DNA from: Streptomyces sp. PsTaAH-137
Lineage (GTDB): Bacteria; Actinomycetota; Actinomycetes; Streptomycetales; Streptomycetaceae
DNA: 64,000 nucleotides
Direction: 5' to 3'
NCBI RefSeq assembly: GCF_003259365.1
Contig: NZ_QLLY01000012.1
Coordinates: 67,089-131,088 of the forward strand
The position numbers and the translations under genes are program-made. Each line of letters starts with the position of its first letter. Within the stretch, counting starts at the first letter, position 1. Of the stretch, positions 42,011 to 54,668 are shown one piece after another. Under the pieces are notes generated by a model, which made no database searches, was not told the DNA's origin, and saw only the letters and a list, made by a program, of their open reading frames with translations.

Positions 42011-45544
<3,534 letters not shown>

Positions 45545-45676: not shown

Positions 45677-46561
45677 CTAGCGCAGACCGGGCGGCGGGCC
45701 GATGGGGCGGGAGGCGACGGTGAACGCGGTGAAGTCCGCGTACTGGGCGCGCGGGGTGGCCCAGCTGGGGTCGCCGCCGCCGAAGAACGTCGAGAAGAAG
45801 ACGCCCGCGATGCGCAGCTCGTCACTGGTACGGAACTCCAGGCCGTCCCGGGAGAGCACCCGCCGCCCGTCGAGGTCCACGGTGACCGAGCCGTCGCGGT
45901 GCCCGGAGCGGTTGAGGACCACGGACTGCTCGACGCAGGTCCAGCGGCCGACCGGCCAGGACCAGGAGCCGCGGCCGAGCGAGGTGCCGTGCACCTTCGA
46001 GGTGGGCAGGTACGCGTACACCTCGCCGAGGCCGCCGGAGCGCCACATGTAGCGGGTGGACAGGCCGTCGTCGCCGTCGGGGATGTGGCCGCCGCTGGTG
46101 GTCGTCCCCCCGTAGAGGCCGGGCAGCTTGCCGCCCTTGACGAAGTCGAAGCCCGCCGGGAAGCGCAGGCAGTACCTCAGGTGCAGCCGGTCGACGGGCC
46201 CGGAGCGCAGCGGCAGGTAGAGCTGGACGCCGCCCCCGGGCCGGTCGTAGGTGCGCGCCACCGTGGGACTGGCCGAGCGGGCCGGGTAGCGGACCCGCAG
46301 GACCGGGCCCGGGACCGGCCCGCCGCCGGCGAGCAGTTCGGCCCGGTCGAGGCCGAACGATCCGGCGTGCCGGGCGCTGACCTGCGCCCCGAAGAGTCCG
46401 GCCACGGCCCGCGCGCCCCCGGTGAGCGGCGGGCCCGTCGGGGTGGTGGTCGGGGGCGGGGCCGGTTGCGTCGCGTGGTCGTCCTTCGAGCCGGACGAAC
46501 ACCCGACGAGCACCGCCCCGGCCGCGGCGGCCCCCGCCACCATGAACTGCCGCCTGCGCAT
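45677..46561 (-). CDS. Secreted polysaccharide-lyase-14-like lipoprotein
   Basis: A 294-residue exported lipoprotein. A twin-Arg-like start (MRRRQFMVAG) and lipobox (AVLVGCSSG) are followed by a Thr/Pro linker. The mature domain shows a jelly-roll pattern with conserved runs LRYCLRFPAGFDFVKGGKLPGLYGG, STRYMWRSGGLGEVYAYLP and SWPVGRWTCVEQSVVLN. These resemble the polysaccharide lyase 14 / alginate-lyase-like family, which depolymerises uronic-acid polymers. It is the last gene of the polysaccharide operon, where a lyase could trim or release chains. The ATG at 46561 has GGAGGGG 5 bases upstream. Confidence 0.78.
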   Translation of the reverse strand: MRRRQFMVAGAAAAGAVLVGCSSGSKDDHATQPAPPPTTTPTGPPLTGGARAVAGLFGAQVSARHAGSFGLDRAELLAGGGPVPGPVLRVRYPARSASPTVARTYDRPGGGVQLYLPLRSGPVDRLHLRYCLRFPAGFDFVKGGKLPGLYGGTTTSGGHIPDGDDGLSTRYMWRSGGLGEVYAYLPTSKVHGTSLGRGSWSWPVGRWTCVEQSVVLNRSGHRDGSVTVDLDGRRVLSRDGLEFRTSDELRIAGVFFSTFFGGGDPSWATPRAQYADFTAFTVASRPIGPPPGLR

Positions 46562-46583
46562 GGCTGCCCCTCCCTGTGCCCCG

Positions 46584-49328
46584 TCACGCGGTGTTCCTGA
46601 CATGGCCCGCGACCCGCGGCGGCGCGGTCCTGCGGTGCCGGACCTGGTGGACGGTCTGGAGCAGCACCGCGAGCCCGAGCGCGACCAGCGCGGCGAGGCC
46701 GAGCCAGGGGAAGGGCGGCAGGCTGATCTCGGTGGCGTCGTCGAGGCGCACCGAGCCGTCCCCGGACAGCGCGACGGCCGCCCGCACCCGGGAGTCGGTC
46801 AACTCCAGGCGGGCGCCCGCCTCGGCGTCGACGCCCTTGCGGCGGGCCAGCACGTCCAGGCCGACGGCGGTGACCCGCGCGCCGGGGGCGAGGTGCACCC
46901 CGCGGCGGGCCTCGCTGACGACGAGCCGGTCGAGGCGGGCCGAGCCGCGCAGGTCGACGGCCGTCTGCGCGCCGGTGACCGAGCCGCCGTCGACCCGCAG
47001 CCCCGGTGCCGCCGAGGACAGGCCCTTCACGCTGGTGCCGCCGATCCGCACCCCGGTCAGGGACACGCCCCGGGTCGTGCCGGACGCGGTGATCCCGAAC
47101 CGGTGGGCCCGCACGTCCAGGTCGCGCAGCGCGACGGGTCCGGCCCGGCCGCGTACGGCGACGCCGGTGGCACAGTCGTCGAGCGCGGTGCCGTCGACGA
47201 CGACGTGCGCCCCGGCGACCTCGACGGCCCGCGCGAAACCGGTCGCCCGGCCGCCGCGGACGGTCGCGCCGCCGATGCCCGCGGCCAGCGAGATGCCCGT
47301 ACCGCTGCCGTCACCGGCCAGGTCGGGCTCGCTCACCGTCACCCGGGAACCCGCCCCGAGCACGGCGATCGCGGCCGGGGTCGAGCCCACCAGCGGGCTG
47401 CGGACGGTGCAGGAGGCGCAGGACATCAGCCGGATGCCGCCGCTCCCGTCGCCGTACGCGACCGGGGCGCTCAGGACGAGGCCGCGCTGCGGTGTCGTCC
47501 TGATGCCCGTGCCGCCGTTGGCGCGGGTGACGACACCGGTCAGGACGCGGCCGTCGGTGCCGCCCACGACGACTCCGTGCCGCCCGCCGGCCACGGCGGA
47601 CAGGGCGCGCACGGTGGTGCCGCGGTCGCCGTTCAGGACGACGCCGTCCTCGGCCGACCCGGTCGCGGTGACCCGGTCGAGCCGGACCCCGCGGGAGCCG
47701 CCCAGGCGCAGCCCGGTGCGGTTGCCCCGGAACGCCGAGCGGACGGCGCTGCCGGTGCTGCCCCTGGCCCAGGTGACCCCCGACTGCACGGCGGGTCCCG
47801 CGCGGCCGAATCCGGTGACGGTCGAGCGCACGATGTCCATCCGGCCGCCCGCGCCCATCGCCAGATAGGGCCGGCCCGGGCCGGGTCCTGTCGAGCGGAG
47901 GGTGGCGCCGGTGAGGTCGAGGACGGCGCGCGAGCCCTTGATCCAGGTGCCGGACGCGGCCGTCCGGCCCGTCGTGAACAGGACGGTGCCGTCGGCGGGC
48001 CGGATCTGGAGGGCGCTGCCCGGCGCGAGCAGGACCGCCGCGCGCACCCGCATCGTGGGGTGCCGTCCCGGCTGGTACGTGATCCAGCCCGCCCCCGCGT
48101 TGGCGGAGAGCCAGCCCGGGGTGACCGCGCCGGGGCCCGGGTAGAGCCGCCGCACGACGACCCCGCGCCGGACCAGGGCGACGGTGCCGGGACGCAGCAC
48201 GATCAGCCGCTCGGGCCTGCCGTTGCGCGCCCAGGCCGCGACATCGGGATCGCCACCGGCCCGGGCCCCGGCTTCCTCCCGCCCGGGCTTCGTGACCCGG
48301 CCCGGATCCGGCACCTCGGGAGCCCGGGTCGGCGCGGCCGGCACCCGGGTCGGCAGGGTCGGCGCCACCGGCACCGAGGGCGCCGGAGCCCGCGTCGGCC
48401 GGGACGGCGCCGACGTGGGGTGCGCCGGGGCCGAACTCGGCGCACCCGGATCACGCGTCGGTTGGGGTGGGTCGGAGGTCGGTTGGGGTGGGTCGGATGT
48501 TGGATGCGGTGGTTCGGAGGTCGGCTGCGGTGGCGCGGATGTTGGTTGCGGGGGTCCGGAGGTCGGCTCCGCGGGCGCCGAAGTGGGCTCCGCCGGGGCC
48601 GAAGTCGGCTCCGCCGGGGCCGAGGTCGGCGCACCGGGCTCTTCCGTCGGCTCCCCCGGTTCACCTGTCGGCCGCCCCGGGCCCGAGGTCGGTGCCCCCG
48701 GGTCAGGGGTGGGCTCCGCCGGGGCCGAAGTCGGGGCCCCCGGGTCAGGGATGGGCTCCGCCGGGGCCGAAGTCGGGGCCCCCGGGTCAGGAGCCGGCTC
48801 CACCGGCGCCGAGGTCGGAACCCCCGGGTCACCCGTGGGCACCCCCGGGGCGGAGGTGGGCGCCCCCGGATCCCCGGTCGGCTCACCCGGGGCCGAGGTC
48901 GGCTCACCCGGATCATGGGTGGGCCCCGCCGGCCCCGAGGTCGGCGCCCCCGGATCCTCCGTAGGCGCCCCCGGACCCGAAGTCGGCCCGCCCGGGTCCG
49001 CGGTAGGCGGCACCGGTGCCGGAGCGGGCTCCCCCGGAGCGGAGGTCGGCGCCCCCGGATCTCCCGTCGGGCCCGCCGGAGCCGGGGCCTGATACCCCGA
49101 ACCTCCCGGCACCCCGGAGAACGCCGTCACCCCCGGTGCCACGGCCCCCGGCACCACCACCGGCGCGGCCAGCAGCGCGGCTCCCACGGCCCCGAGCGCC
49201 GCCTTGCGCAGGGCGGCACCCGGGGAAGCGCCCCGTAAGGGGCGCGGGGAACTGCGCGAGAAGCCCCACCGGCGGCCGGCCGAACGACGACCCGCACCCC
49301 GGGCCCGCGCCCCGGCCCGCCCCCTCAC
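46584..49328 (-). CDS. Wall-spanning right-handed beta-helix protein; contains a TTA codon
   Basis: A 914-residue exported protein. An atypically long Arg-rich N-terminus leads to a signal-like stretch (ALRKAALGAVGAALLAAPVVVPGAVA, about 37-62). Roughly 300 residues of Pro/Thr-rich repeats follow (PTSAPAE heptads, TGDPGAPTSAP units). Then comes a right-handed parallel beta-helix domain of about 500 residues, with short strand-turn units such as VRSPLVGSTPAAIAVLGAGSRVTVSEPDL, and a C-terminal membrane helix (WLGLAALVALGLAVLLQTVHQVRHRR). AlgG-type polyuronate epimerases share this fold. Codon 31 is TTA (49236-49238), within a genomic repeat, so translation should need bldA. The GTG at 49328 overlaps the GT2 stop. 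Confidence 0.78.
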   Translation of the reverse strand: MRGRAGARARGAGRRSAGRRWGFSRSSPRPLRGASPGAALRKAALGAVGAALLAAPVVVPGAVAPGVTAFSGVPGGSGYQAPAPAGPTGDPGAPTSAPGEPAPAPVPPTADPGGPTSGPGAPTEDPGAPTSGPAGPTHDPGEPTSAPGEPTGDPGAPTSAPGVPTGDPGVPTSAPVEPAPDPGAPTSAPAEPIPDPGAPTSAPAEPTPDPGAPTSGPGRPTGEPGEPTEEPGAPTSAPAEPTSAPAEPTSAPAEPTSGPPQPTSAPPQPTSEPPHPTSDPPQPTSDPPQPTRDPGAPSSAPAHPTSAPSRPTRAPAPSVPVAPTLPTRVPAAPTRAPEVPDPGRVTKPGREEAGARAGGDPDVAAWARNGRPERLIVLRPGTVALVRRGVVVRRLYPGPGAVTPGWLSANAGAGWITYQPGRHPTMRVRAAVLLAPGSALQIRPADGTVLFTTGRTAASGTWIKGSRAVLDLTGATLRSTGPGPGRPYLAMGAGGRMDIVRSTVTGFGRAGPAVQSGVTWARGSTGSAVRSAFRGNRTGLRLGGSRGVRLDRVTATGSAEDGVVLNGDRGTTVRALSAVAGGRHGVVVGGTDGRVLTGVVTRANGGTGIRTTPQRGLVLSAPVAYGDGSGGIRLMSCASCTVRSPLVGSTPAAIAVLGAGSRVTVSEPDLAGDGSGTGISLAAGIGGATVRGGRATGFARAVEVAGAHVVVDGTALDDCATGVAVRGRAGPVALRDLDVRAHRFGITASGTTRGVSLTGVRIGGTSVKGLSSAAPGLRVDGGSVTGAQTAVDLRGSARLDRLVVSEARRGVHLAPGARVTAVGLDVLARRKGVDAEAGARLELTDSRVRAAVALSGDGSVRLDDATEISLPPFPWLGLAALVALGLAVLLQTVHQVRHRRTAPPRVAGHVRNTA
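48330..49090 (-). repeat. Tandem repeat coding for a Pro/Thr stalk
   Basis: Within the beta-helix gene the DNA repeats with periods of 33 bp (units encoding TGDPGAPTSAP) and 21 bp (units encoding PTSAPAE or PTSxPPQ). Units differ by a few bases, consistent with unequal recombination. The reading frame stays open on both strands here, a by-product of composition. Confidence 0.8.
49239..49258. repeat. Repeat core (copy D) inside the beta-helix coding sequence
   Basis: GGGGCGCGGGGAACTGCGCG, identical to the intergenic inverted-core sequence, followed by AGAAGCCCC as in other copies. On the coding strand it encodes SRSSPRPL and brings the TTA codon with it. It lies 70-90 bases after the start codon. 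Confidence 0.85.
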
Positions 49329-50593
49329 GCCGCCGCCCCCGCCCCGGAGGACGGCGCGGCCGCCTCGGACGACGGGGCGACCGGCGCCGTACGGACCACG
49401 ACGCCGTTCTCCACCGACACCTGACGCGTGAGCCAGCGCTGGCGGCGCACGGTGAGCAGGGCGCAGATCTTGATGACGGCCATCAGGAACGACATCACCA
49501 CGAAGCCCGGCACCAGGAAGAACGACGTCGGCCTGCGTACGAGGTGCGGCAGCATCTTCATCGACCGGCTGACCCACCACCAGGCGCCCAGGCAGGCGAC
49601 GAAGAACCAGTCGTGGCGGACGATCGCGTACGTCATGAAGAACGGTGACAGCAGCAGGGTGAAGCTGCTGACGCTCTTGTCGATCATGCTGTAGGCGAGA
49701 AACGGGTGCCGCCACACCCAGCGCCGCGACAGTGCTCTCAGATCGGAGCGCCAGGTGTTGCGGGCCCACCGCAGCCGCTGCTTGCAGAAGACGCGCAGCG
49801 TCCCGGGGAACGTCGACCAGACCCGTGCCGAGCGCTGCATGTACGTACGGTGCCCGCGCTCCAGGACGAGCGTGGTCAGCCGCTTGTCGTCGCCGGACAT
49901 GCACGGCACGCCCATGAAGGTCTCGGCCATGAAGTCGTCGGAGACCTCCAGGAGCAGGGCGCGCCGGTAGACGGCGGTGCGCCCCGACAGGCAGGAGACG
50001 GCCCGGCCGAGGACGGTCTGCGACGCGTTCTCGTCGAAGTACCGGTAGTCGAGGAACATGTCGTTGACCCGCTGGAGGAACCCGCGTGGGTTGTAGACGT
50101 TCTGCCGGGTGCCGACCCCGCCGACGCGCGGGTCGGCGAACGGCCTGCGGACCTCGGCCGCGACGTCGTCGGCCCAGACGGTGTCGGAGTCGACCAGCGC
50201 GACCAGCTCCGAGCGGCAGGCCTCCCAGCCCCGCCGCAGGGCGTCGCGCTTGCCGGGGACGTCGGTGACGAGGACGGTGACCGGGTAGCCCTCCGCCACC
50301 CGGCGGCAGACGTCGTCGGTGACGTCGATGACCAGGACCACCTCGTCGACCTCGTTGGCCAGCCAGGACTCGATGGCGAGGCGGAGGATCTCCGGGTCCT
50401 CCTGGTAGACGGGGACGACGACGCCGAGCGTGGCCGGGTGCTCGCCGCGGGCGGGCCGGTACAGCGCCGCCGGCACCCGCCGCACCAGCCAGGAGGCCCA
50501 GCGGACCAGGCCGATGATGCCCAGCGGCAGATAGACGAGGTAGTAGCGGAGGTCGACGAACGCGCTGCCGAAGAAGTCGAGGAATCTGCTCAT
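49325..50593 (-). CDS. Processive family 2 glycosyltransferase (hyaluronan/alginate synthase-like)
   Basis: A 422-residue membrane polysaccharide synthase. An N-terminal helix pair (YYLVYLPLGIIGLVRWASWLV) precedes the GT-A domain: VVVPVYQEDPEIL, ALVDSDTVW (D-x-D), SGDDKRLT (the catalytic-base region) and KQRLRWARNTWRS (the Q-x-x-R-W motif of processive enzymes such as HasA, NodC and Alg8). At least three C-terminal helices follow. The motif set indicates polymerisation and co-secretion of a beta-linked chain from UDP- or GDP-sugars. It follows the nucleotide-sugar dehydrogenase by 41 bases and overlaps the beta-helix gene by 4. Confidence 0.9.
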   Translation of the reverse strand: MSRFLDFFGSAFVDLRYYLVYLPLGIIGLVRWASWLVRRVPAALYRPARGEHPATLGVVVPVYQEDPEILRLAIESWLANEVDEVVLVIDVTDDVCRRVAEGYPVTVLVTDVPGKRDALRRGWEACRSELVALVDSDTVWADDVAAEVRRPFADPRVGGVGTRQNVYNPRGFLQRVNDMFLDYRYFDENASQTVLGRAVSCLSGRTAVYRRALLLEVSDDFMAETFMGVPCMSGDDKRLTTLVLERGHRTYMQRSARVWSTFPGTLRVFCKQRLRWARNTWRSDLRALSRRWVWRHPFLAYSMIDKSVSSFTLLLSPFFMTYAIVRHDWFFVACLGAWWWVSRSMKMLPHLVRRPTSFFLVPGFVVMSFLMAVIKICALLTVRRQRWLTRQVSVENGVVVRTAPVAPSSEAAAPSSGAGAAA

Positions 50594-50634
50594 GATCCGT
50601 GTCCGTCCTCGTGGTGAGACCGCGCGGGCGGCGG

Positions 50635-51507
50635 TCAGGTCCGGCCGAGACTGGAGGCGGAGAGCACATCGTTGACCCTGACGACCGCCGTGAGCAGCGG
50701 CATGTCGATGCCGAGGCCGTCGGCGAGCGCCAGGAACCCGCGGGTGTCCTTGGGCAGGCAGACACCGCCGTACGGGCTGCCGCCGCGGATGCCGTAGTAC
50801 GGGTTGTACGAGGCTTCGGCGGAACGGGCGACGGTCTGCGCGATCGGGTCCAGATCGAGGCCGAGCGTGCGGCTGACCAGCCACATCTCGTTCCAGAAGC
50901 TGATCTTCGTAGCGTTGTAGATGTTGTGGGCGCACTTCACGAACTCGGCCTCGGCCGGGTCGGTGAAGAACTGGATCTCGCCGCCGAACGGGGCGAGGAG
51001 CGCCGCGAGCCGCTCGCGGGTGCGGGTGCTGCGGGCGGCGATCACCGTCATCCAGGGATGGCGGAAGTCCTCGACGGCGGAGGCGGCGCGCAGGAACTCC
51101 GGGTTGCTGGCGAGCGTGAAGTCCTCGCCGGGCGTGCGGCCCGAGTACTTCTCCAGGAGCGGCTTGACGACGCCCTCGGCGGTGCCGGGCGGCACGGTCG
51201 AGCGGACCACGACGACGTGCGGTGCGGTGGCGTCGGCGAGCGCCCGGCCGACCGAGGCGGTGCCGTCCTGGAAGGCGGTCAGGTCGTAGCCGTGCCCGGT
51301 GCTCGGGGTGGGCAGGGTCAGGAAGATGAAGGCGTCGGGCGCTCCCTTCAGGTCGAGCGAGTCGTGGGCGTCGAGTCCCTGGGACCGCAGGTGGTCCAGG
51401 CGGTGCGGTGACACGTCGACGAAGGTCACCTCGTGGTCGGCACGAAGCAGGCCCTTGCCGGTGGCGGTACCGACGACGCCGGAACCGACGATGAAGATCC
51501 TTGACAT
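50635..51507 (-). CDS. Short UDP-glucose/GDP-mannose dehydrogenase (no C-terminal domain)
   Basis: A 290-residue member of the nucleotide-sugar dehydrogenase family that oxidises UDP-glucose or GDP-mannose to the uronate. The NAD-binding domain has IFIVGSGVVGTATGKGLL, VVVVRSTVPPGTAEGVV and ASNPEFLRAASAVEDF. The central domain has FVKCAHNIYNATKISFWNEM and the catalytic cysteine Cys250 in GGVCLPKDTRG. Family members are normally 400-450 residues. Here the protein ends right after the central domain, so the second nucleotide-sugar-binding domain is absent. It leads the polysaccharide operon. The ATG at 51507 gives MSRIFIVGSG. Confidence 0.85.
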   Translation of the reverse strand: MSRIFIVGSGVVGTATGKGLLRADHEVTFVDVSPHRLDHLRSQGLDAHDSLDLKGAPDAFIFLTLPTPSTGHGYDLTAFQDGTASVGRALADATAPHVVVVRSTVPPGTAEGVVKPLLEKYSGRTPGEDFTLASNPEFLRAASAVEDFRHPWMTVIAARSTRTRERLAALLAPFGGEIQFFTDPAEAEFVKCAHNIYNATKISFWNEMWLVSRTLGLDLDPIAQTVARSAEASYNPYYGIRGGSPYGGVCLPKDTRGFLALADGLGIDMPLLTAVVRVNDVLSASSLGRT

Positions 51508-52085: not shown

Positions 52086-54668
52086 TCAGTCTGTCGCGAT
52101 CGCGTTCAGTACGTTCATCCGGCCCGCCCGGAACGCCGGGATCAGCGCCGCGAACAGTCCGACGAAGGCCGAGCCGACGAAGACCGAGAGGATCGTCGGC
52201 CAGGGGATCTCCAGGACGCCGAGACCCTCCAGGGCGAGGAGCTTCTGGGCGGTCGCGCCCCAGCCCATGCCGAGGCCGAGGCCGAGCAGGGCGCCGAAGA
52301 GGGCGATGACGACGGACTCCAGGCGGATCATGCGGCGCAGCTGGCGGCGGGAGAGGCCGATGGCCCGCATGAGGCCGATCTCCCTGGTCCGCTCGACGAC
52401 CGACAGGGCCAGGGTGTTCACGACGCCGAGCACCGCGACGATGATCGCGAGGGCGAGCAGCCCGTAGATCATGTTGAGGAGCTGGCCGATCTGGTCCTTG
52501 AGGGTCTCCTTGTAGTCGGTCTGGTCCTTGACCTTCACGGTCGGGTCGGCGGCGACGGACTTCTTGAGCGCCGCGTACGCCTGGTCGGCCTTCCCGTCGG
52601 CGGCCTTGGCGAACATCATCCCGTTGAGCGGGACGCGGTCCTCGGGCAGATAGCGCGTCGCGGTCGCGATGTTCGTGTACATCGCGCCCTTGTCGAAGAC
52701 GGTGTCGTCGGAGGTGATCGCCGCGACCGTCAGCTTCGCCGTCCGGCCGTGGTCGAAGGCGACGGTCATCCGGTCGCCGACCTTCACCCCGTTCTTCTCG
52801 GCGAACTCGGAGCCGACCGACATGGCGTTCTCGCCGTAGGCGGCGCCCAGTTCGCCGGAGGTGGTCTCGCGGCGCAGGTCCTGGGCGTAGGACGGGCTGG
52901 CCGCGACCAGCTCTTCCTCCTCCTTCGCCCCGCCGGGCACGGTCAGCGTCGTCTTGACGTACTTGACCTCGGTGACGCGGGCGACGTCCCCGGCCGCCCT
53001 GGTCCTCTTCAGGGCCGCGGCGGCCTGCGGGGTGATGACGCCGTTGCTGGGTTCGACGATGAAGTCGGCGCCGACCGACTTGTCGAGCTGGTCGGTGGCC
53101 GAGGCGACCATCGAGGAGCCGACGACGGAGAGGCAGGCGACGAGCGCGAGACCGATCATGAGGGCCGCGCCGGTGGCGCCGGTGCGGCGCGGGTTGCGCA
53201 GCGCGTTGCGCTCGGCCATCCGTCCCACGGGGCCGAAGAACCGGAGCAGTACGGCGCTGATGACGCGGACGACGAGCCCGGCGAGGAGCGGTCCGACGAC
53301 GACGAACCCGATGAGCGAGGCGACGATGCCGGCGCCGAGCCACAGCGAGCCCTGGCTCGCCTTGTCGGCCTGGGTGGCGAGGTAGAGCGCGTATCCGCCG
53401 CCGCCCGTGAGGAGCAGGCCGAGGACGGCGCGGACGGCTCCGGCCCTGGTGTCGGCGGGGGTGCCCGCGTCGCGCAGGGCGGCCATCGGGGAGACCTTGC
53501 CGGCCCGGCGCGCGGGCAGGTAGGCGGCGAGGACGGTGACGACGATGCCGAGCAGCAGGCCGATCGCGGGGGTCGTCCACTTCACGGTGAGGTCGTCGGT
53601 GGAGAGGTCCATGCCGGCGGCGGACATCAGCTTCATCAGGCCGACGGCGAGGCCCACTCCGGCGCCGACGCCGAGGACCGAGCCGACGACGCCGAGCAGC
53701 AGCGCCTCGACGAGGACGGAGCGGTTGACCTGCTTGCGGCTGGAGCCGATGGCCCGCATCAGGCCGATCTCGCGGGTGCGCTGGGCGACCAGCATCGAGA
53801 AGGTGTTGATGATCAGGAAGATGCCGACCAGGAACGCGATCCCGGCGAAGCCGAGCAGGGCGTACTTGATGACGTCCATGAAGGAGGAGACGTCGGAGGC
53901 GTTGGCGTCCGCGGCCTCCTTCTGGGTCTGGAGCTTGTACGGGGTGGTGAGCGTGTCCTTGATGTTCGCCTTGACCTGGGCGTCGGTGTAGCCGGTCGCG
54001 GCGGCGACGTTGATCTGCGTGAACCGGCCGGTGCTGCCGATGAGTTCCCGCTGCGCGGTGGCGGTGTCGAAGTAGACGACGGCCGCGCCGGGGTTGGTGA
54101 CGGTGAAGGCGGCGACGCCGACGATCCGGGCCTCGATGTCGCCGGTGGCGGCGATGGTGCGCAGTTCGTCGCCGAGCTTCAGGTGGTGCTTCTTGGCGGT
54201 GTCGGCGTCGACCATGACCTCGGTCGGGCCGCGCGGGGCGTGCCCGGAGGTGATCTCCATGGAGCGGAGGTCGTTCCTGGTCCAGTTGCCCGCGATGGTG
54301 GGGGCGCCGTTCTCGGAGCCCATGTTCTTGTTCTTCGCGTCGACGACGGTCACGTTCATCGAACTGACCGCACCCTCGGCCGACTTGACGCCTTTCGCCT
54401 TCGCCACGGCGGCGACGGCGGAGGCGGGCAGCGACTCGGGGCGGCCGGTGGCGCTGCCCTCCGCCTCGGAGTCCTTCGGGCTGACGGTGACGTCGGAGGA
54501 CGTGGCCGTGAACAGTTTGTCGAAGGTCTTGTCCATCGTGTCCGTGAACACGAGCGTGCCGCAGACGAACGCGACGGACAGCAGCACGGCGATCGCCGAG
54601 AGGGCCATCCGGCCCTTGTGCGCGAGGAAGTTGCGCAGCGACGTCTTCATGACGGTGTTGGCACTCAT
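52086..54668 (-). CDS. FtsX/MacB-type ABC permease (pair 2)
   Basis: An 860-residue two-module FtsX permease, paralogous throughout to the one at 18024-20564. It shows the same start (KTSLRNFLAHKGRMALSAIAVLLSVAFVCGTLVF) and the duplicated cytosolic motifs LMRAIGSSRKQV and LMRAIGLSRRQL. The same C-terminus (FRAGRMNVLNAIATD) and two large extracellular domains are also present. It overlaps its ATPase gene by 4 bp (ATGA). Substrate unknown. Confidence 0.92.
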   Translation of the reverse strand: MSANTVMKTSLRNFLAHKGRMALSAIAVLLSVAFVCGTLVFTDTMDKTFDKLFTATSSDVTVSPKDSEAEGSATGRPESLPASAVAAVAKAKGVKSAEGAVSSMNVTVVDAKNKNMGSENGAPTIAGNWTRNDLRSMEITSGHAPRGPTEVMVDADTAKKHHLKLGDELRTIAATGDIEARIVGVAAFTVTNPGAAVVYFDTATAQRELIGSTGRFTQINVAAATGYTDAQVKANIKDTLTTPYKLQTQKEAADANASDVSSFMDVIKYALLGFAGIAFLVGIFLIINTFSMLVAQRTREIGLMRAIGSSRKQVNRSVLVEALLLGVVGSVLGVGAGVGLAVGLMKLMSAAGMDLSTDDLTVKWTTPAIGLLLGIVVTVLAAYLPARRAGKVSPMAALRDAGTPADTRAGAVRAVLGLLLTGGGGYALYLATQADKASQGSLWLGAGIVASLIGFVVVGPLLAGLVVRVISAVLLRFFGPVGRMAERNALRNPRRTGATGAALMIGLALVACLSVVGSSMVASATDQLDKSVGADFIVEPSNGVITPQAAAALKRTRAAGDVARVTEVKYVKTTLTVPGGAKEEEELVAASPSYAQDLRRETTSGELGAAYGENAMSVGSEFAEKNGVKVGDRMTVAFDHGRTAKLTVAAITSDDTVFDKGAMYTNIATATRYLPEDRVPLNGMMFAKAADGKADQAYAALKKSVAADPTVKVKDQTDYKETLKDQIGQLLNMIYGLLALAIIVAVLGVVNTLALSVVERTREIGLMRAIGLSRRQLRRMIRLESVVIALFGALLGLGLGMGWGATAQKLLALEGLGVLEIPWPTILSVFVGSAFVGLFAALIPAFRAGRMNVLNAIATD

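Follow-up and report, generated by a model that had tools for sequence, protein, structure and literature searches.

The closest described system to the locus studied here is that for alginate (alg) in Pseudomonas and Azotobacter (AlgD, Alg8, Alg44, AlgG, AlgL and others, among them AlgK, AlgE and AlgX), which likewise brings together a nucleotide-sugar dehydrogenase, a processive GT2, a protein of the AlgG fold and a lyase. The dehydrogenase AlgD has three domains, whereas that of the present locus is half-size; the lyases are of PL14 (or, in related loci, PL7) instead of PL5, the family to which we take AlgL to belong; and the AlgG-fold protein is anchored and lacks the DPH motif, in a Gram-positive host. 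According to the available part of a genome survey, 64 alginate operons occur in 1733 genomes, the majority in Pseudomonas (PMC7112194). The literature searched, which covered few subscription papers, yielded no account of alginate clusters from Gram-positive bacteria. An older view, set out in the accessible text of a review, is that brown algae received the alginate-specific steps from an ancestral actinobacterium (PMC8307928); the accessible text of another paper describes an actinobacterial origin of the algal dehydrogenase as poorly supported (PMC11468063).

The window analyzed here, a stretch of 64,000 nucleotides, is part of the 8.96 Mb genome of Streptomyces sp. PsTaAH-137 and carries on its minus strand, 5' to 3', genes for a dehydrogenase, a GT2, a beta-helix protein and a PL14 lyase. 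A sequence-only reading had taken the four for an operon that makes and modifies a uronic-acid surface polymer, with the alginate genes as model, and the gene order it gave, with gaps of 41, -4 and 22 bases, was reproduced from the coordinates of the following features:

50635..51507, minus strand: half-size nucleotide-sugar dehydrogenase, 290 aa (Pfam, TIGR03026, alignment, model)
49325..50593, minus strand: membrane GT2, presumed polymer synthase, 422 aa (Pfam, PDB profile match, motifs)
46584..49328, minus strand: secreted, C-terminally anchored beta-helix protein, 914 aa, GTG start (Pfam, fold, alignment, tree)
48273..49106, minus strand: Pro-rich stalk of about 278 residues (88 Pro, 33 Thr) in the beta-helix gene
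46719..48248, minus strand: beta-helix region, model residues 22-531 (predicted model and VIA-align)
46632..46706, minus strand: C-terminal helix of 25 residues, presumed TM anchor, model residues 536-560 (DSSP on the model, hydrophobic stretch)
45677..46561, minus strand: PL14 lyase, 294 aa, twin-arginine-like start, lipobox LVGC (PF21294, 5gmt match)

All four are real genes, as had been claimed, with third codon positions 94-97% GC in the called frames, and Pfam assigns every one of them, leaving none over. The GC-frame call for the beta-helix gene starts only at 48374, and for the PL14 gene an alternative ATG start is possible 42 bases upstream. Within the stalk, the DNA at 48457-49058 shows degenerate tandem repeats of 21 and 42 bases. 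A promoter scan returned 0 hits, and 3 terminator-like elements were found against 1.1 expected. The 4-base overlap of the GT2 and beta-helix genes recurs in all 11 gene pairs checked (10 loci); together with the codon GC and with the occurrence of homologous gene sets elsewhere, this indicates that the four-gene set is more than a chance arrangement.

The four genes belong to a conserved actinobacterial cluster, and we consider it fairly likely that they represent, in Streptomyces, an actinobacterial pathway of alginate (mannuronan) type with parts unlike those of the Pseudomonas and Azotobacter alg system. One GT2 scan of named genomes gave 15 loci (nine in Streptomyces, three in Pseudonocardia, and those of Bailinhaonella, an Acidimicrobiales MAG and a Frankiales MAG), to which whole-genome searches added L068, L091, L092, L093 and L096, making 20. 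Genomes G245, G286, G396 and G401 were taken as loci L038, L034, L035 and L039 and counted once; every count of 20 includes L041 and even L042, which stops shortly after the GT2. The dehydrogenase, GT2 and beta-helix genes are consecutive in L043, in L044 and in all but one of the nine Streptomyces loci. Locus L040 starts inside the cluster, without a dehydrogenase, and L041 has a GT2 followed by a dehydrogenase only, which counts against an alginate-type pathway.

An extra gene lies between those for the beta-helix protein and PL14 in L068 and in seven of the nine Streptomyces loci; it encodes an AlgG-like protein and thereby explains the cluster. AlgG-like beta-helix proteins with a Y(G/A)xDPH motif are present in 15 of the 20 loci (not found in L038, L040, L041, L042 and L091). 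The motif reads YGLDPHDD in Streptomyces and YAIDPHTN or YGVDPHTG in Pseudonocardia, with no variation in its Tyr, Asp, Pro and His among 11 aligned DPH proteins. The DPH protein of L032 has only AlgG entries as PDB matches, with the motif aligned, and the NCBIfam AlgG model is matched in L032 (7.1e-17), L043 (7.8e-43) and L046 (8e-30), all far below the 700-bit cut-off. As described in the available part of a review, the His of DPHD is the likely proton abstractor and Tyr314 holds a possible donor water (PMC4444821); from the name of the D317A entry, we infer that Tyr314 is the Tyr of the motif. The arginine position of AlgG is occupied by Arg in L046, and by Gln, Glu, Asp or Lys in the other DPH proteins inspected; its replacement in most of them counts against an alginate-type pathway. 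That position is presumably 345.

In two loci the GT2 and a helix are fused in opposite order, as GT2-DPHD helix in L045 (8470-11574) and as helix-GT2 in L092 (8320-10764). These GT2-epimerase fusions and the overlap of the separate genes make the same point, namely that the synthase and the helix protein probably act together. A further apparent GT2-epimerase fusion, in L093, was rejected as an artefact of one frame read across a frameshift. A different combination is seen in L046 (9672-13454), where an AlgG-like helix with the DPH motif shares one protein of 1260 residues with acyltransferase-3 and SGNH domains, suggesting that epimerization and acetylation may be combined in one polypeptide.

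The assignment of the fourth gene to PL14 is upheld by the Polysacc_lyase_14 family (PF21294; 189.2 bits, cut-off 27). The solved PL14 enzymes closest to it are alginate lyases (5gmt, E 1.8e-24), with which it shares the GGKLPG, SxRxMW and YAY motifs, found in all 12 PL14 proteins checked; we assume that these motifs belong to the active site, a subject on which our literature search found nothing for PL14. It differs from those alginate lyases in having a lipoprotein signal and in lying beside synthesis genes, and the lipobox pattern is also present in 8 of the 11 other PL14 proteins checked. Among the 20 loci, PL14 is encoded in 12 and a PL7 alginate lyase in three, L044 encoding both; the PL7 protein of L043 matches Alginate_lyase2 (1.4e-37) and a solved alginate lyase (9.1e-58).

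Genes for GDP-mannose supply accompany five of the 20 loci. A nucleotidyltransferase with mannose-1-phosphate guanylyltransferase as its best NCBIfam model is present in L032 (130.8 bits, cut-off 440), L035, L038 and L040, a phosphomannomutase in L032, L035 and L040 (694.3 bits in L040, cut-off 618), and a PMI-type cupin in L046. Such genes are absent from the stretches read around the other 15 loci and from the neighbourhood of the window, which counts against alginate. Nevertheless, the DPH proteins, the PL14 and PL7 lyases and the GDP-mannose genes of the related loci together indicate an alginate-type pathway; they strengthen the original analogy with alginate, as does the AlgG fold described below, and a uronic polymer is the likely product of the cluster.

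The first gene was correctly read as a nucleotide-sugar dehydrogenase. Its product passes TIGR03026 with 192.3 bits, just above the cut-off of 189.8 and despite a missing third domain, and contains UDPG_MGDP_dh_N (98.7 bits, cut-off 27) and the central domain (72.4, cut-off 25.4). Pfam gave no match to PF03720, the third, C-terminal nucleotide-binding domain, and 13 aligned cluster homologues also end before it. The enzyme shares the first two domains and the conserved residues with GDP-mannose 6-dehydrogenase (1mfz) and UDP-glucose dehydrogenases, from which it differs in having no third domain. Six residues to which we ascribe catalytic roles (T104, E137, K191, N195, C250 and K253) are invariant in 16 aligned rows; the model has a mean pLDDT of 82.6 and is poor at 234-252, which covers the conserved Cys. 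By both sequence and structure the top match is GDP-mannose dehydrogenase, with the UDP-glucose enzyme within noise (176.4 vs. 174.9 bits; Z 25.8 vs. 24.8). We infer GDP-mannose, not UDP-glucose, as the precursor; the tie between the two enzymes and the missing nucleotide-holding domain count against alginate.

The GT2 matches Glyco_tranf_2_3 (117.4 bits, cut-off 27) and carries the motifs DxD, GDD and Q(Q/R)xRW, which we take to mark a processive synthase: D135-S-D137, G234-D-D236 and Q272-R-x-R-W276 are conserved in 13 rows, with D235 in at least 90%. It departs from the Pseudomonas and Azotobacter system in being nearest, in the libraries searched, to hyaluronan synthases among solved structures (E 1.1e-29, profile against PDB) and to NodC among NCBIfam models. 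In the GT2 tree the window falls into a group of 19 (support 99/99) next to a sister group (98/98) that includes L092; the lack of an epimerase in the window may reflect one loss or several. On plasmids no close homologue was found, the best reaching 40.5%; a conjugative Enterococcus faecium plasmid (L098:5684-8101) carries, by public annotation, a dehydrogenase-GT2 pair whose GT2 is 27.7% identical to that of the window.

Of the seven named Streptomyces species with the cluster, four were formerly placed in Chainia (L033, L036, L037 and L039), at least 14 species with a Chainia synonym having been seen. The Chainia group is known for forming sclerotia. The GT2 tree splits the four species into two groups, and a link between the cluster and sclerotia, such as a sclerotial matrix resembling alginate, is a lead, not evidence.

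A related GT2 (E 3.9e-95 to 6.0e-99) occurs in 12 of 392 Streptomyces genomes and marks a sister cluster, also seen in one genome of another family (L021). In eight of the nine sister loci read (L022 and L070-L077) an anchored-type beta-helix protein adjoins the GT2, as in the window, and in six (L071-L074, L076 and L077) a second, small beta-helix protein and a full-length dehydrogenase of the UDP-glucose/GDP-mannose kind follow; L022 stops at a contig edge, and L075 is a GT2 alone. PF03720 is present in the dehydrogenase of L077. The small beta-helix protein matched Chondroitinase B below the cut-off in the two tested, and no PL14 label and no DPH motif were seen in the sister proteins checked. 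More distant GT2 relatives lie beside GH26-like or 'glycosyl hydrolase' proteins (L023:260-3323, L024:8851-11362 and L097:6923-11494), the last on a Curtobacterium plasmid with a dehydrogenase gene in addition.

These comparisons bear on the nature of the polymer. The full-length dehydrogenases of the sister clusters, the equal closeness of the window's dehydrogenase to the UDP-glucose enzyme and the likeness of the GT2 to hyaluronan synthases would suit a glucuronan or another chain derived from UDP-glucuronate, made by the dehydrogenase and polymerized by the GT2, with PL14 as a glucuronan lyase; some PL14 enzymes do act on glucuronate chains. Such a product is unlikely, given AlgG-like DPH proteins and PL7 alginate lyases within the clusters, the GDP-mannose genes of the five loci and alginate lyases as the closest solved PL14 enzymes. 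Still less probable is a neutral or mixed chain, in which a dehydrogenase-like protein with another substrate accompanies a GT2 making a mannan- or glucan-like polymer bound by the beta-helix protein. The invariant dehydrogenase residues and the recurrent association with AlgG-like proteins and alginate-type lyases speak against this, while the missing third domain and the GH26-like neighbours of the next GT2 relatives (L023 and L024) are in its favour. An alginate-type chain is our preferred reading. Of the two observations that the sequence-only reading had named, in combination, as adverse to itself, a helix without an active site and a neutral polymer, the first was found in that no DPH site is present, and nothing firmly indicates the second.

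The beta-helix protein of the window matches Beta_helix in Pfam (34.2 bits, cut-off 25.9), and its AlphaFold2 model, from 13 sequences, has a mean pLDDT of 90.5 and a pTM of 0.83. Four AlgG entries top both fold searches, Foldseek (E 5.3e-10 to 5.7e-9, with low TM-scores of 0.25-0.30 of the query) and VIA-align (Z 29.5-29.6, rmsd 2.0-2.1, 327-330 residues aligned; Z 29.6, rmsd 2.0 and 327 residues for 4ozy). The fold alone is weak evidence, because phage proteins (tailspikes) come next and score nearly as high (Z 28.5 and 27.5); the relation to AlgG is drawn instead from profile comparison with the DPH epimerases (98.6%, E 7.9e-16), alignment and tree. In the tree, nine beta-helix proteins form a clade (99/97) within a clade of 13 rows (100/100) that also holds the DPH-bearing proteins of L045, L046, L093 and L096, with outer branches poorly resolved, some branches of the tree long, and ten rows of unusual composition. 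Compared with AlgG (4nk6, 4ozy), the window protein shares the fold over about 330 residues and, by way of the DPH-bearing actinobacterial proteins, full-length homology; it differs by the lost motif, the stalk and the C-terminal TM.

The domain had been likened to the epimerase AlgG; the fold part of this proposal stands and the catalytic part probably falls. In the alignment, SAEDGVVLNGD in the window lies opposite NVFYGVDPHDR of L045, with other residues in place of the motif's Y, D and H, and the DPH motif is absent from the window in all six frames. Most simply, the window protein would descend from a DPH-bearing epimerase, and its nesting among DPH-bearing relatives together with the loss of the motif makes it probably a pseudo-epimerase, with the AlgG fold and no DPH motif. 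Lineages with the altered beta-helix protein usually have another protein whose motif is intact; none is present in the window, L038, L040 or L091. A search of the rest of the genome for an epimerase gave a sole match of 100 codons (1.9e-5) and no AlgG candidate at E 1e-10. It is quite unlikely that the window protein still works as an epimerase or lyase by way of another active site, even though it is kept beside the GT2 in 11 aligned Streptomyces and Pseudonocardia gene pairs and retains some conserved polar residues, as all three motif residues are replaced and most such loci have a second protein with the motif intact. With its DPH position lost, an active epimerase in the window is not favoured.

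The topology also departs from the arrangement first proposed, in which a Pro/Thr stalk and a C-terminal anchor would hold the domain across the wall. From its N-terminus the protein consists of a signal-like stretch, the stalk, the helix and the TM; the helix directly adjoins the TM, and the stalk lies on the opposite side of the helix from the anchor. If the signal is cleaved, the stalk would point outward with the helix at the membrane, and to serve as a tether it would need the N-terminal stretch to be retained as a second anchor. Nor is the stalk a conserved feature, being missing in nine other Streptomyces copies aligned; the beta-helix protein of L043 has a Pro/Ala-rich N-terminal stretch. 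The first interpretation is partly borne out, then, and gives way on the DPH motif of the window copy and on the stalk. Further departures from it are the dehydrogenase without a third domain and a GT2 whose nearest matches, in the libraries searched, are hyaluronan synthase and NodC.

In even draws of genomes of the phylum, the GT2 profile (E 1e-60) was found in 5 of 396, the window's own included, the epimerase profile (1e-25) in 4 of 392, and the short-dehydrogenase profile (1e-45) in 18 of 346. In six of these 18 (own, G427, G450, G575, G596 and G599) the frames measure 306-358 codons, at E 1.2e-66 or better; in the other twelve they measure at least 429 codons, at 2.8e-53 or weaker. All four epimerase genomes are among the five other genomes with the short dehydrogenase, with the genes in one neighbourhood. 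Three of the four other GT2 genomes have the epimerase, which is absent in G636, of the sister type. In G599 the short dehydrogenase lies beside a different GT2, with an N-terminal part like that of L096 by eye and no epimerase on the contig. Fisher values of 8.6e-9 and 1.6e-6 are indicative only, as they pool the draws of 396, 392 and 346, ignore kinship and assume that G599, judged from one contig, has no epimerase. A short dehydrogenase with another membrane GT2 type occurs in L096 (7209-8390) and in L113 (9082-10341), the latter outside the table of 20; a DPH epimerase is present on the stretch in L096 and none on that of L113. Within Streptomyces the cluster is rare: 6 of 392 genomes have it at E <1e-240, four with the epimerase, and the window's genome and G245 without.

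The four genes are flanked by genes that we take to be ABC-permease-like (52086-54668) and mfd (42011-45544), and the same permease served as query for comparing the site in nine relatives of the genus. Within the stretch read, mfd is present in six of the nine: it directly adjoins the permease in two (gaps of 261 and 278 bases) and is separated from it by one opposite-strand gene of 473-482 codons in four. Two of the remaining contigs end too early, and one stretch is without mfd. As the interval varies among relatives, the four-gene set has the appearance of an insertion into a variable site.

By the features tested, the locus falls outside the canonical alg system, but it probably works in a similar way. 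The half-size dehydrogenase would oxidize GDP-mannose to GDP-mannuronate, and the membrane GT2 would polymerize and extrude beta-mannuronan. The translationally coupled, anchored AlgG-fold protein may receive and guide the emerging chain on the outer side of the membrane, and the lipoprotein, a PL14 lyase by family, may trim or clear chains. Most of the related loci would add a conversion of mannuronate to guluronate by an AlgG-like protein with the DPH motif. For the window genome, the lost motif and the lack of a good AlgG candidate elsewhere predict unepimerized polymannuronate as the product, and the window copy seems to have lost the step that turns a plain polymer into a gelling alginate.

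The cluster contributes a dehydrogenase that lacks the domain in which the nucleotide would be expected to sit, and a natural gradation of proteins from epimerases with the DPH motif to a pseudo-epimerase. With its presumed steps adjoining, it also provides concrete actinobacterial genes, some in culturable species, for questions on the origin of algal alginate. It is conceivable, if somewhat doubtful, that Actinomycetota have an alginate pathway of their own, with a half-size GDP-mannose dehydrogenase, a non-Alg8 synthase and a membrane-anchored AlgG-fold protein used as presumed active epimerase, as fusion with the synthase or as pseudo-epimerase scaffold, and that a lineage of this kind is a candidate donor of the alginate genes of brown algae; if true, it would be a guide to the unidentified algal mannuronan synthase.
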